Of a DNA stretch of 64,000 nucleotides, positions 35,373 to 40,942 are shown piece by piece. Numbering within the stretch: position 1 is the stretch's first letter; each line of letters opens with the position of its first letter. Where the stretch lies: positions 1,077,037-1,141,036 of the forward strand of contig VXVC01000004.1 of the NCBI GenBank assembly GCA_009836625.1, in the 5' to 3' direction. The translations under genes were made by a program, and so were the position numbers. Source of the DNA: Holophagales bacterium (GTDB taxonomy: Bacteria; Acidobacteriota; Thermoanaerobaculia; Multivoradales; Multivoraceae). The notes beneath the pieces are model-generated. The model did not search any database, was not told the DNA's origin, and saw only the letters and a list, made by a program, of their open reading frames with translations.

Positions 35373-35679
35373 GCCCGGACGCTGGGCGCGCGCGACAAAT
35401 CTGTCGCACCCAACTACCGACCGCACATTCCTGTGCTGCGAGTGCGTGCCGACTGCTTCGGCGAGTCGGTCGCTGAGCCTGTCCAGAAGCTTCCCGACAC
35501 CTCCCTCGTTCGACCCTAAGTCCCGTTGAACCGGCGATTTCTGGGTCACCGGCCGGCCGCCGTCCGGCCCGGCGCCCGCGACTGTCGCCGACCCGCGTGG
35601 TTGGCACGATTCTCGATACATGTCCGGGCAAGCCCGGGCGACGCTCGGCCGGGCCAACCGACTACGAGGAGGTACTCGA
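35373..35679. other. Intergenic control region upstream of amtB
   Basis: This 307-base gap has no credible gene. It holds two short perfect inverted repeats, GCGACA-aatc-TGTCGC (35392-35407) and GCACA-ttcc-TGTGC (35423-35436), then the sigma-54-like site at 35602. The first hairpin could end the amine oxidase transcript, but it lacks a U-tract. The second resembles half-sites of an NtrC-type operator but with non-standard spacing. Both are weak calls. Confidence 0.4.
35602..35617 (+). promoter_or_regulatory. Sigma-54-type promoter for amtB
   Basis: TGGCACGATTCTCGAT compared with consensus TGGCACGNNNNTTGCW matches all seven bases of the -24 block and T, G and W in the -12 block; two -12 bases differ. 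It is 62 bases upstream of the amtB ATG, a normal distance. Control by sigma-54 and an NtrC-like activator would suit ammonium-transport genes. Confidence 0.5.
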
Positions 35680-37017
35680 ATGAGCTTCAGAACGCGAGGC
35701 CGGACGTTTCGTCTGGGTCCGGCCCTGGGACTGACGCTGCTCCTGGCCCTGCTGGCAGCTTCGCCCGCGGCAGCCCAGGACGGCGTGGACACCGGCGACA
35801 CGGCGTGGATGCTGGCCGCCAGCGCCCTGGTGCTGCTGATGACGCCGGGACTGGCGTTCTTCTACGGCGGACTCGTCCGCCGCAAGAACGTCCTCTCGAT
35901 CCTCATGCAGTGCTTCCTGTGCATGGGCGTCATGACCGTGCTGTGGGTCGTCATCGGCTTCAGCCTCGCCTTCGCCCCTTCCGCCCTGGGCGGCCTGATC
36001 GGCGGCGGCGACTACTTCCTGCTCGGCAGCCTGGGCCACGACGCCTGGGACGGCACGACCATTCCGGCACCGCTGTTCATGATCTTCCAGGGCATGTTCG
36101 CGATCATCACGCCGGCACTCATGATCGGGGCCTTCGCCGAGCGGATGAAGTTCAGCGCCATCTGCCTGTTCATGAGCGCCTGGCTGCTGGTCGTCTACGC
36201 TCCGGTCTGTCACTGGGTCTGGGGTAGCGGCGGCGGCTTCTTCGGATTCGGCGAGGGAGCACTCGACTTCGCGGGCGGCACCGTGGTCCACATCAACGCC
36301 GGCGTTTCCGCCCTGGTCGCGGCGATGGTCCTCGGCCGGCGTCGGGACTATCCCGTGCATACCTCCCCGCCCCACAACCTGCCGTTCGCCGTCCTCGGCA
36401 CGGGGCTGCTCTGGTTCGGATGGTTCGGCTTCAACGCCGGCAGCGCCCTGGCAGCCAACGGGTCGGCCGCCAACGCCTTCGTCGTCACCCAAGTGGCAAC
36501 CGCCACCGCGGCCGCCACCTGGGGACTGATCGACTGGATCCGCGACTCGAAGCCGACGCTCCTGGGCGTCATCACCGGCGCAGTCGCCGGCCTCGTGGCG
36601 ATCACGCCGGCCTGCGGCTCCGTCAGCGCCATCGGCGCGATCGGCGTCGGCGCCGGCGCTTCACTGTTCGCCTACCTGGCCGTCACCTGGCTCAAGGCCA
36701 GGCTCGGCTACGACGACTCGCTGGACGTCTTCGGCGTCCACGGCGTCGCCGGCATGTGGGGCGCGGTCGCGGCAGGACTCTGGGCCACGGACACCGTGCC
36801 TGAGAACGATGCGAACGGCCTGTTCTACGGCAACGCCGGACAGGTCTGGACCCAGATCGAGGCGGTTCTCTTCACCATCGTCTGGGCCGCCGTCGTGTCC
36901 TTCATCCTGCTCAAGATCGTCGACCTGATCGTTGGCCTCCGCGTCAGCGACGACGAGGAGCGGATCGGTCTCGACCTCACCGACCACCGCGAAAACGCCT
37001 ACACCCTGGTTGACTAG
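35680..37017 (+). CDS. amtB: Ammonium transporter AmtB
   Basis: A 445-residue membrane protein starting at ATG 35680 behind GAGGAGG; upstream ATG 35620 has no such site. A signal peptide (ALGLTLLLALLAASPAAAQ) precedes eleven membrane segments. The family opening DTAWMLAASALVLLMTPGLA with FFYGGLVRRKN, the first pore His in VVHINAGVSALVAAMVLG and the second in DVFGVHGVAGMWGAVAAGLW form the twin-His conducting site. It imports ammonium and is gated by a P-II protein binding from the cytoplasm, here encoded 18 bases downstream. The sigma-54-like site upstream suggests induction under nitrogen limitation. Confidence 0.96.
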   Translation: MSFRTRGRTFRLGPALGLTLLLALLAASPAAAQDGVDTGDTAWMLAASALVLLMTPGLAFFYGGLVRRKNVLSILMQCFLCMGVMTVLWVVIGFSLAFAPSALGGLIGGGDYFLLGSLGHDAWDGTTIPAPLFMIFQGMFAIITPALMIGAFAERMKFSAICLFMSAWLLVVYAPVCHWVWGSGGGFFGFGEGALDFAGGTVVHINAGVSALVAAMVLGRRRDYPVHTSPPHNLPFAVLGTGLLWFGWFGFNAGSALAANGSAANAFVVTQVATATAAATWGLIDWIRDSKPTLLGVITGAVAGLVAITPACGSVSAIGAIGVGAGASLFAYLAVTWLKARLGYDDSLDVFGVHGVAGMWGAVAAGLWATDTVPENDANGLFYGNAGQVWTQIEAVLFTIVWAAVVSFILLKIVDLIVGLRVSDDEERIGLDLTDHRENAYTLVD

Positions 37018-37035: not shown

Positions 37036-37377
37036 ATGAAGTACATCGTGGCAATCGTTCAGCCCGACAGGATGCAGGAGGTCCTCGATCTGCTGGAAGA
37101 GAAGGAGATTCACCTCCTGACCGTCTCCAGCGTGATGGGACGCGGCCGCCAGCGAGGGGTGGCCGAGGTCTACCGGGGTCACAAGGAAGCGGGCGCCCTG
37201 CTGCGCAAGCTCAAGATCGAGATCGCGGTGAACGACGACTACGTCGACATCGTGATCGACGCGATCACGAGGGGCGCCAAGACCGGCCGGGTCGGCGACG
37301 GGAAGATCTTCGTCCTGCCGCTCGAGGAGACCATCCGGATCCGCACTGGCGAAACGGGGAACGTCGCGATCGGCTGA
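37036..37377 (+). CDS. glnK: P-II nitrogen regulatory protein (GlnB/GlnK) lacking Tyr51
   Basis: A 113-residue protein collinear with E. coli GlnB without gaps. Conserved residues are Gln39 in GRGRQRG, Lys58, the GRVGDGKIFV loop with Lys90, and IRIRTGE with Arg101 and Arg103, so ATP/ADP and 2-oxoglutarate binding should be intact. In the T-loop EVYRGHKEAG keeps Tyr46 but has Glu51 where enterobacterial P-II carries the uridylylated Tyr51. The protein therefore cannot be modified at that site by GlnD and probably signals by ligand binding alone. AAGGAGGA precedes the ATG. It should bind and block AmtB, and may also act on GlnE, whose gene is convergent. Confidence 0.95.
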   Translation: MKYIVAIVQPDRMQEVLDLLEEKEIHLLTVSSVMGRGRQRGVAEVYRGHKEAGALLRKLKIEIAVNDDYVDIVIDAITRGAKTGRVGDGKIFVLPLEETIRIRTGETGNVAIG

Positions 37378-37444: not shown

Positions 37445-40400
37445 TCAGTCCGACAGCCCGTCGAACAGACGCTCGAGCGATCGCATGTGCTGGACGATCC
37501 GGTCCCAGGCGCCCTCCTCGTCCGGCAGCTGTCCGAGACTGTGCAGCCGACGTGCCAGGAAGCGGAACTCCCTCGTATCCGCCGGGGGAATGACGAGGTC
37601 CTTGCTGTGCCCGCGGACGATCCGCAGGCAGTTGATCACCGCGCGCAGGAGCCGGTAGCCCTCGCTGATCTGCTCGAACTCGTCAGCCGACAGGTGGCCG
37701 CGCTCGTGGAGCGCGTGAACCGCGTCGAGTGTGTTCGTCTGCCGCACCTCCGCGTCGCCGGCGCCGGCCGCGATCTGCCGCACCTGGACGGAGTACTCGG
37801 CGTCCAGCAGGCCGCCGGCGCTGAACTTCGCGTTCGTCGTGCCGCGCGTGACGAGTTCCGACCGCTGGCGTTTCCTGAGATGCCGGATCCTCGCGACGTC
37901 GTGCGGACGTGGATCGAAAACGAACTCCTGGCGGTGCGCCTCGACGCGAGCGGCAAGATCCGGGTCGCCGGCCACCGTGCGTAGCCGCACCAGCGCCTGA
38001 CGTTCGTACGGATCCGCCTCCCCGTCGAAGCTGTAGTACGAAACGAAGCGCTGAAACGAGGCGGCAAGCGGCGACGAAGCGCCGCCCGGCCGCAGCCGCC
38101 AGTCGAGTTCGAAGATCCCGTCGCGCTTGGCACGGATCAACCGCGACAGCCGTTGCGCCGCTCTCTCGTAGAACTCGCCACCCTGAGCGAGCAGGGACCG
38201 TTCGGCGTCCCAGACGAACATCAACTCGATGTCCGACGCGTACCCCAGATCGCGTCCGCCCCACTTCCCGAGCGCGCAAAGGCACCAGGCTCCAGACTCG
38301 GCTCCGTCGCCGGCCGTCTCCCCGACGGCTTCGGCCGCCGCCCGCGCGAGCACGACATCGGAGAGCGTCGACAGCTCTTCGCCGAAATCGCTGAAGCGCT
38401 CGATCCGCCGCGTCAGGTGACGCATGTCGATACGTCCGATCTCGTCGTCCTTGAAGCGGTTGAGGGCCTCCTCCGGCGCCTCCTGTCCTTCGAGCGCGAC
38501 ATCGAGGCGGCTCTCCAGGTCCTTCCGTCCAGCGCCCAGGTCGAGGTCGGCCATGCCCTCGAGCAGCGGCATCAGGTTCTCGTGCTGGCGACGCAGGAAC
38601 TCCTCCCAGAGATACGTGCCGGCTCCCAGCACGCGTGCCAGTTCGTCGAGCGACGACGCCAGGGCCTGCGTCGGATCGGCAACCTGCTTGCAGGCCGCAT
38701 CGATCAGCGCCCCGAACTGCCGCAGGGCGAGCTGCGGGTTCGGCGCCACCGCCAGCCGCCGCGCGAACTGCTTCATCAGCGTCACCGTGAGTCGGAGATG
38801 GTCGACGCCGATGCGGTCCTCGATCTTCCCGCCGCTCCGCGTGGTGACGAACAGGCGGTCGCGGACTTCGCCCTGGACCGTGTCGAACTCGACCTTGTCG
38901 ATCCAGTAGTCGCGGGTAGAGAGAACATTGGCGAACTCGAACAGGAACATGAAGCTGTCGGGACTTCGGATCTCGAGGATCGTGCAGTGCTCGTCCGACT
39001 CGTTGTCGACCGAAATCGATATGGGAGGCATGACCTGTTCGGCATCGACGCCCGGATCGGCCAGACGGGCGGCCTCCATCACGCGCAGGGTCAGTTCCTC
39101 GTTGGCGCGCTGCGCGTCACCCTCGGCCAACATGCCCAGAAGCCGGTTCAGGTCCCGCTCGAAGTCCGTCCAGGAGAAGACGCGGGAAGCGTGGGCCGGC
39201 GCCGGCTGGATGTCGGCGGAGTACACGATGCGCGTGGGGCCAGGCGTCGCTGGCCGCGACTTCTGGTCCTTGCGGTGACGCTGGCGGCCGCGCCGGCCAC
39301 GCGTCCGCGACGAAGGACGCCGGCCCGCCCTCCCGGGCCGCCGGTAGAACTCCATGTCGCCCGTGTCCTGGTAAGTGTAGGAACTGCCGCTCAGGATCGA
39401 CTGGCCGTAGGCCGCGAGCAGGCCGCAGATCTTGGCGAACTCCCCCTGGTAATCGTTGGCGACCACCGTCACGCGGCGAGTCGAACCGACGTGCCGCACG
39501 TCGACCCGGCACAATCGCTCGCTGTCGAGTTCGTGGATCAGCTCGACGTGGCGGGACACCTCCTCCACCGGGTGAGCGAGGAAGTAGGCGCTCTCGAGGC
39601 GCCGAAAGTGCTCGTCGATGAGTTCCGCCGGCAGGTCCGGGCACCGTTCCCGCACCTGGTGCTTACGTTCCAGAAAGTCGATCGTCTCGTCGAAGAACTC
39701 GCCGAAGATGCGCCGCACCTCGGCCGCCGTCTCTTCATAGCGGCCGCCCAGATCGAGCGTGTCGAGCGGCTGGCGCAGTGCGAAGGCAACCCGCCACTGG
39801 AATGTCGCCCACTGTTTCGGCGCGCGCGGAAGCTGGCGTACCGGCAGGTCGCGTTCCAACTGCAACACGTGCTCGACGACCCGCAGGAAGATGTAGGCCT
39901 CGCGCAACCGGTCGTACTCCTCCTTCGTGACCACGCGGTGCGCCCGCAGCCGGGACATAGCCCGCAGCGTGTTCGGCGAGCGCAGGCTCTTGTTGGAGGC
40001 GCCGTGGTAGAGCTGCAGCAACTGGACGATGAACTCGATGTCGCGGATGCTGCCGGCGCCGAGCTTCACATTGCCGATCTCCGTGCCCTTGGAGCGAAGC
40101 GACTTCTCGATCATCTGCTTCATCTCGAAGACTTCCCGCAGCAGGGTCTCCGGCGGCCTGTCCGGATCGAAGACGAAGCGCCGCGTACCGTCGATCAGCG
40201 CCTTGGCCGCGGCTGCGTCGCCCCCGGCGAAGCGCGCCTTGATCAGCGCCTGGAACGTCCAGTTCATGCCGTAGCGCTCGTAGAAGCGGAGGTATTGACT
40301 CACCGTCCGCACCAGGGGGCCCATCTTGCCCTCGGGCCGCAGGCGCATGTCCACGCGGAAGACGAAACCGTCGCCCGTGTTGTCGGAGATCAGGCGAATG

Positions 40401-40942
40401 AACTGGGGCGCCTGCCTCTGCAGCCGGTGCAGGGCTTCCTGGTCGACATCGTCCGAGGCCACGAACAGGGCGTCGATGTCCGAGCTGTAGTTCACCTCCA
40501 GCCCGCCCCACTTGCCCATCGCGATCACCGCGAACGGTTCCTTGTCCAGGCCGGTCGCATCGAGCGCCCGCTGGACGCAGACGTCCGCCACCTGGGAGAT
40601 CTTCTGTGTCGTCGCGGCGAAGTCGTCGAGGCCGCTGAAGTCGGCGACCGCGACCCGGATCAGCTCGCGATACCGAAGGACGCGGAGCCAGCGGCGCATG
40701 TCCTCGTCCGGCGCCGGCCGGAGCGCGGCCATGCGCTCGCGCTGCGCGTCCACCGACTCCTGTTCGACGGGAAAGAGCCCCTCGTCCGCGTCCGGATGCG
40801 CGTCGAGCCACCGGGCGTAGGCCGGGGCGTACTCGCGCAGGATGTCCCGCTGCGCCAGCGCGAGGGTTTGCCGCGGATCCTCGGCGTCCTCGATGTCCAT
40901 GGCCGCGAAGGCCTCGATCGCTTGCTCAAGGCGCGAGTTCAC
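37445..40942 (-). CDS. glnE: Glutamine synthetase adenylyltransferase/deadenylase with internal ACT-like domains
   Basis: GTG 40942, behind GAGGAG, gives 1165 residues, against about 950 in E. coli GlnE. Two nucleotidyltransferase halves are clear: GKWGGLEVNYSSDIDALFV (residues 144-161) and LGKWGGRDLGYASDIELMFV (891-910), each followed by a helical domain (LGAGSIRDIEFIVQ and SAGGLLDAEYSVQ). Between them are a stretch RVTVVANDYQGEFAKICGLL with AYGQSILSGS (about 488-535) and CTILEIRSPDSFMFLFEFAN plus DYWIDKVEFDT (about 650-705), both shaped like ACT regulatory domains. They are joined by an Arg-rich linker (536-565). It adenylylates and deadenylylates glutamine synthetase. The extra domains suggest direct sensing of glutamine or another amino acid. 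Confidence 0.9.
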   Translation of the reverse strand: MNSRLEQAIEAFAAMDIEDAEDPRQTLALAQRDILREYAPAYARWLDAHPDADEGLFPVEQESVDAQRERMAALRPAPDEDMRRWLRVLRYRELIRVAVADFSGLDDFAATTQKISQVADVCVQRALDATGLDKEPFAVIAMGKWGGLEVNYSSDIDALFVASDDVDQEALHRLQRQAPQFIRLISDNTGDGFVFRVDMRLRPEGKMGPLVRTVSQYLRFYERYGMNWTFQALIKARFAGGDAAAAKALIDGTRRFVFDPDRPPETLLREVFEMKQMIEKSLRSKGTEIGNVKLGAGSIRDIEFIVQLLQLYHGASNKSLRSPNTLRAMSRLRAHRVVTKEEYDRLREAYIFLRVVEHVLQLERDLPVRQLPRAPKQWATFQWRVAFALRQPLDTLDLGGRYEETAAEVRRIFGEFFDETIDFLERKHQVRERCPDLPAELIDEHFRRLESAYFLAHPVEEVSRHVELIHELDSERLCRVDVRHVGSTRRVTVVANDYQGEFAKICGLLAAYGQSILSGSSYTYQDTGDMEFYRRPGRAGRRPSSRTRGRRGRQRHRKDQKSRPATPGPTRIVYSADIQPAPAHASRVFSWTDFERDLNRLLGMLAEGDAQRANEELTLRVMEAARLADPGVDAEQVMPPISISVDNESDEHCTILEIRSPDSFMFLFEFANVLSTRDYWIDKVEFDTVQGEVRDRLFVTTRSGGKIEDRIGVDHLRLTVTLMKQFARRLAVAPNPQLALRQFGALIDAACKQVADPTQALASSLDELARVLGAGTYLWEEFLRRQHENLMPLLEGMADLDLGAGRKDLESRLDVALEGQEAPEEALNRFKDDEIGRIDMRHLTRRIERFSDFGEELSTLSDVVLARAAAEAVGETAGDGAESGAWCLCALGKWGGRDLGYASDIELMFVWDAERSLLAQGGEFYERAAQRLSRLIRAKRDGIFELDWRLRPGGASSPLAASFQRFVSYYSFDGEADPYERQALVRLRTVAGDPDLAARVEAHRQEFVFDPRPHDVARIRHLRKRQRSELVTRGTTNAKFSAGGLLDAEYSVQVRQIAAGAGDAEVRQTNTLDAVHALHERGHLSADEFEQISEGYRLLRAVINCLRIVRGHSKDLVIPPADTREFRFLARRLHSLGQLPDEEGAWDRIVQHMRSLERLFDGLSD

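Follow-up and report, generated by a model that had tools for sequence, protein, structure and literature searches.

The GlnD/P-II/GlnE cascade is a textbook model of covalent signal relay. Canonical E. coli GlnE answers to glutamine directly, without ACT domains. In the relay, uridylylation of P-II at Tyr51 yields the form that drives GlnE (PMC3612183). The ACT domains of GlnD are regarded as the probable glutamine sensor (PMC3173338), and in other ACT proteins ligands are bound at the strand 1-loop-helix 1 segment (PMC3173338). GlnD-type ACT domains also exist outside GlnD. Plant ACR proteins contain them (PMC3173338), but these proteins consist of repeated ACT domains and have none of the catalytic halves of GlnE. 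Control that does not depend on P-II has a precedent in actinobacterial GlnE, where adenylylation of glutamine synthetase (GS) is not governed by P-II (PMC3612183).

The window (the whole stretch of 64,000 nucleotides that was analysed, from a Holophagales bacterium) encodes a GlnE with a large insert between its catalytic halves, and the insert resembles the C-terminus of GlnD. One lineage of Acidobacteriota has this GlnD-type sensor module inside GlnE and lacks GlnD, which suggests a shortened nitrogen-sensing pathway. If so, a single protein can take the place of the cascade. In other words, the sensor of the first member would reside inside the last member, and the first member itself would be absent.

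Architecture of the GlnE and its insert

The first-pass annotation had described a GlnE of 1165 residues with ACT-like domains between its catalytic halves, and both points stand. The open reading frame at 37445-40942 (minus strand) is uninterrupted, and AGGAGG is present upstream of its GTG start (Table 1). Pfam GlnE (PF03710) matched the protein twice (1e-72), and the GlnD_UR_UTase helical domain also matched twice (2.6e-31), each time after a nucleotidyltransferase domain. NCBIfam GlnE models were the best matches, yet they scored below the curated thresholds (400 bits where 625 are required). TIGR01693, the full-length GlnD model, scored 70 bits against the whole protein and did not reach its cut-off of 519. 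Metal-binding acidic motifs are found in both halves, SSDID and RVDMRLRP in the first and SDIE and ELDWRLRP in the second. From its domains and motifs the protein is identified as a bifunctional GS adenylyltransferase/adenylyl-removing enzyme. By analogy with E. coli, residues 131-420 would form the adenylyl-removing half and residues 831-1165 the adenylylating half. The protein is not a GlnD because it has two nucleotidyltransferase halves and no HD hydrolase domain.

The two halves, the helical domains, the acidic metal motifs and the central helical region are shared with E. coli GlnE (PF03710), and as in other GlnE systems a GS with the target tyrosine is encoded in the same genome. Three features set the protein apart from E. 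coli GlnE: the ACT1-ACT2 insert of ~240 residues, a shortened N-terminus and SDIE for SDLD. In the alignment, the N-terminus is also ~120 aa shorter than that of distant ACT-type relatives. The change from SDLD to SDIE (DxD to DxE) in the second half is found in all ACT-type GlnEs and lies at 38225-38233 of the window (residues 904-906).

Table 1. Features of the ACT-type glnE and the neighbouring genes in the window
Feature	Residues	Position	Strand	Basis or remark
amtB-type ammonium transporter gene		35620..37017	+	Immediately upstream of P-II gene; assigned by sequence and gene order
Single P-II gene, convergent with glnE		37036..37377	+	T-loop YRGHKEAG, Glu at Tyr51 position
glnE (ACT type), GTG start	1165 aa	37445..40942	-	Open in 15/15 near-full-length close relatives
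N-terminal helical part	1-130	40553..40942	-	Alignment with distant ACT-type relatives
First nucleotidyltransferase half and helical domain	131-420	39683..40552	-	SSDID, RVDMRLRP retained
Insert start: linker like GlnD stretch just before ACT1	421-487	39482..39682	-	PRK05092, hhalign
ACT1 first part (strand 1, helix 1, strand 2)	488-526	39365..39481	-	Loop glycine G500 (NDYQGE)
Arg-rich loop within ACT1	~527-569	39236..39364	-	13/43 Arg; variable; gap versus GlnD
ACT1 second part (strand 3, helix 2)	~570-612	39107..39235	-	Alignment, hhalign
ACT2	~639-710	38813..39028	-	NCBIfam GlnD match, alignment, hhalign
Central helical region	711-800	38543..38812	-	Alignment to E. coli and canonical Acidobacteriota GlnE resumes
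Second nucleotidyltransferase half	831-1165	37448..38452	-	SDIE (D904, E906) in place of SDLD

How closely does the insert resemble GlnD? NCBIfam GlnD models matched the protein at residues 425-527 and 624-710, and positions 675-780 of PRK05092 aligned to the first of these segments. When the insert was searched alone, it matched PRK05092 (1.3e-14) and TIGR01693 (1.2e-11). An HHpred-type comparison had been named in the first-pass annotation as a check. Performed with hhalign on a profile of 19 inserts and a profile of eight GlnD C-termini, it gave a probability of 99.7 and an E-value of 8e-27 over 227 columns. The alignment is colinear with the GlnD C-terminus (TIGR01693) over the pre-ACT linker, ACT1 and ACT2, and its one large gap corresponds to the Arg-rich stretch. 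Further evidence comes from the three GlnEs of a second family of the same class, which matched GlnD models across the linker, ACT1 and ACT2 with values up to 3.4e-21. Three distant members matched Pfam ACT or ACT_ACR9_3rd, the latter a link to the plant ACR proteins; one match was over the cut-off (7.7e-8) and two were weaker. Pfam ACT models gave no match in the window GlnE itself.

The module differs from its GlnD counterpart in being internal and in having an ACT1 that is split by the Arg-rich loop. The first-pass annotation had counted two ACT domains, which is upheld, but had placed them at about 488-535 and 650-705; ACT1 spans ~488-612 around the Arg-rich loop, and ACT2 spans ~639-710. 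It had also taken the Arg-rich stretch for a linker separating the two domains, whereas this stretch lies within ACT1, after strand 2 and ahead of strand 3. The ACT1 loop reads NDYQGE, and DRPG is common in GlnD. In ACT2 the loop glycine is replaced by Met665 in the genus and is Gly in the other family. ACT1 of E. coli GlnD likewise lacks the loop glycine (DRPYLF).

Structure prediction with AlphaFold gave a mean pLDDT of 50 for the insert and 44 for the whole protein, from input relatives that were too alike. The order of strands and helices in the insert model (pLDDT 50) was compatible with an ACT fold, and Foldseek listed a few ACT proteins, none of them significant. Searching PDB sequences with an insert profile gave nothing relevant. 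Because the AlphaFold confidence is low, the assignment of an ACT fold rests on homology and not on predicted structure. The homology strongly supports the presence of GlnD-like ACT domains within GlnE.

Distribution and constraint

A class-wide survey searched 149 genomes with the GlnE family. GlnE was found in every one of the 21 genus genomes and in three genera of the second family, each represented by one genome; no GlnE was found in any other of the 149 genomes. The insert was detected in all 24 of these GlnE genomes, one genus genome being fragmentary there. The second-family proteins show 36% identity to the genus type. E. coli GlnE has no counterpart of the insert at the same site in the alignment, in line with the first-pass statement that it lacks ACT domains, and none is present in nine canonical GlnEs from other classes of the phylum. 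Among ~400 genomes drawn from Acidobacteriota, no further insert-bearing GlnE was detected, and the remaining weak matches were mainly GlnD proteins or fragments. In a tree of the first half that omitted E. coli, the ACT-type GlnEs formed one group with modest support (80/76). The tree that included E. coli left their origin open.

The GlnE survey covered Acidobacteriota and the records of a plasmid collection. GlnE matches in the plasmid collection spanned at most 62% of the query; those from Nonomuraea and Tsukamurella covered under half of it, in two pieces. We know of no ACT insert in actinobacterial GlnE. Two GlnE matches came from viral contigs, one whose matched length is too short to fit the insert (L159) and one that is partial (L160). 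The close public relatives are metagenome-assembled genomes of Holophagales, Thermoanaerobaculia, Acidobacteriota and similar. No description of an ACT-bearing GlnE was found in titles or abstracts of the open-access full-text literature, a body that leaves most subscription journals outside its coverage.

Selection on the module was assessed from pN/pS in 12 members of the genus. Residues 488-526 of ACT1 had a pN/pS of 0.000, with zero nonsynonymous differences and 28% of synonymous sites differing on average. The value was 0.056 for ACT2, 0.076 and 0.156 for the first and second catalytic halves, and 0.51 for the Arg-rich loop. In other words, the ACT cores are under constraint at least as strong as the catalytic parts, and the Arg-rich loop is weakly constrained.

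P-II, GlnD and glutamine synthetase

The genus arrangement has glnE tail to tail with the P-II gene and the amtB-type gene, and P-II adjoins glnE in every locus examined. The Glu that stands in P-II where E. coli has Tyr51 is identical in seven of seven further genus members that were checked. Two sister genera from this family, which have neither GlnE nor GlnD, also carry a P-II with Glu51. Glu51 is therefore not a response to the fusion; it must either predate the presence of GlnE or be unrelated to it.

Whether glnD is present had been raised in the first-pass annotation as well. None of the genus genomes contains GlnD above the cut-off, and in the own genome of the window the best GlnD score was 26 bits, from GlnE itself and from an HD-type region elsewhere. 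The main GS-I of this genome retains the GlnE target tyrosine (DIYDLSPEE).

In the second family, glnA adjoins or lies near the ACT-type glnE in all three genomes. One of them holds glnD, a Tyr51 P-II, an amtB-type gene, glnA and the ACT-type glnE within 20 kb (L067 1308-18483). Full GlnD and ACT-type GlnE occur together in two of the three genomes, and the third has no GlnD above the cut-off. Since GlnD is kept in two of three distant relatives, the fusion is not simply or generally a GlnD replacement. The earlier proposal that GlnD-like sensing had been merged into GlnE fits the genus, where GlnD was not found. In the second distant genome with GlnD (L071 6471-9386), no aligned P-II has Tyr51 in the usual place.

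A possible role of the module in sensing

How would the module act? The reading that we favor, with a probability of about 0.62, is that GlnE gained the GlnD sensor module (linker, ACT1 and ACT2) between its halves, which would shorten the glutamine relay. The sequences argue for it through the homology and colinearity with GlnD, the conservation of the module, the absence of GlnD and of P-II Tyr51, and the retained tyrosine of GS. Glutamine or another amino acid would bind mainly at ACT1, and binding would swing GlnE between adenylylation of GS under nitrogen-rich conditions and its de-adenylylation under nitrogen-poor ones. The relay from GlnD via P-II-UMP to GlnE would then be reduced to ligand and GlnE, and unmodified P-II may still add ligand-dependent input. 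ACT1 is the likelier putative binding site, given its loop glycine and extreme conservation and the lack of that glycine in ACT2 of the genus. As the best account of these data we infer that GlnE senses an amino acid directly. Most likely, the ACT domains of GlnE would read glutamine and so circumvent the relay through GlnD and P-II-UMP. A stricter form, in which GlnE reads glutamine and sets GS alone, there being no GlnD and a P-II that cannot be uridylylated, has a little less than an even chance. Because E. coli GlnE is already glutamine-responsive, the novelty would lie in the dedicated sensor module and not in direct sensing as such. Against the favored reading stand the low confidence of the structure models, Met665 in ACT2, the co-occurrence with GlnD in two of three distant relatives, and Glu51 in the GlnE-less sister genera.

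Could the module be real but serve something else? It might sense another ligand (e.g. glutamate, aspartate or a branched-chain amino acid) and so tie GS to a different signal. Many amino acids are bound by ACT domains, and the replaced glycine of ACT2 and an ACT1 loop unlike the DRPG of GlnD agree with this idea. The module is specifically GlnD-like, however, and the likely ligand of GlnD is glutamine (PMC3173338), so another ligand seems unlikely. We find it just as improbable that the module senses no ligand and instead serves structure or oligomerisation, or docks P-II or GS, with regulation left, as in canonical enzymes, to unmodified P-II and to glutamine acting elsewhere on GlnE. P-II is the constant neighbor of glnE in the genus loci examined, and ACT domains often pair with each other. 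The GlnE of Actinomycetes is free of P-II control (PMC3612183), so other GlnE inputs exist. Yet the strongest conservation falls on strand 1-loop-helix 1 of ACT1, the ligand segment in other ACT proteins (PMC3173338), which argues against a purely structural or docking role.

An artefact, whether a frameshift, mis-joined genes or chance resemblance to ACT domains, has hardly any probability left, even if the Arg-rich stretch resembles out-of-frame GC-rich sequence at first sight. The insert is open, stop-free and kept in all 15 near-full-length public relatives, which come from separate assemblies, and it is thus not an assembly or frameshift artefact; a frameshift or mis-joining of genes was rejected. 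Moreover, pN/pS is low on both flanks of the Arg-rich stretch, and the hhalign probability contradicts chance resemblance. If GlnE does sense through a GlnD-derived module, as we favor, GlnD-type ACT sensing becomes directly testable because the readout, GS adenylylation, is in the same chain.

Besides its main GS-I, the own genome of the window encodes a second glutamine-synthetase-like protein of 438 aa (L073 4554-5870).
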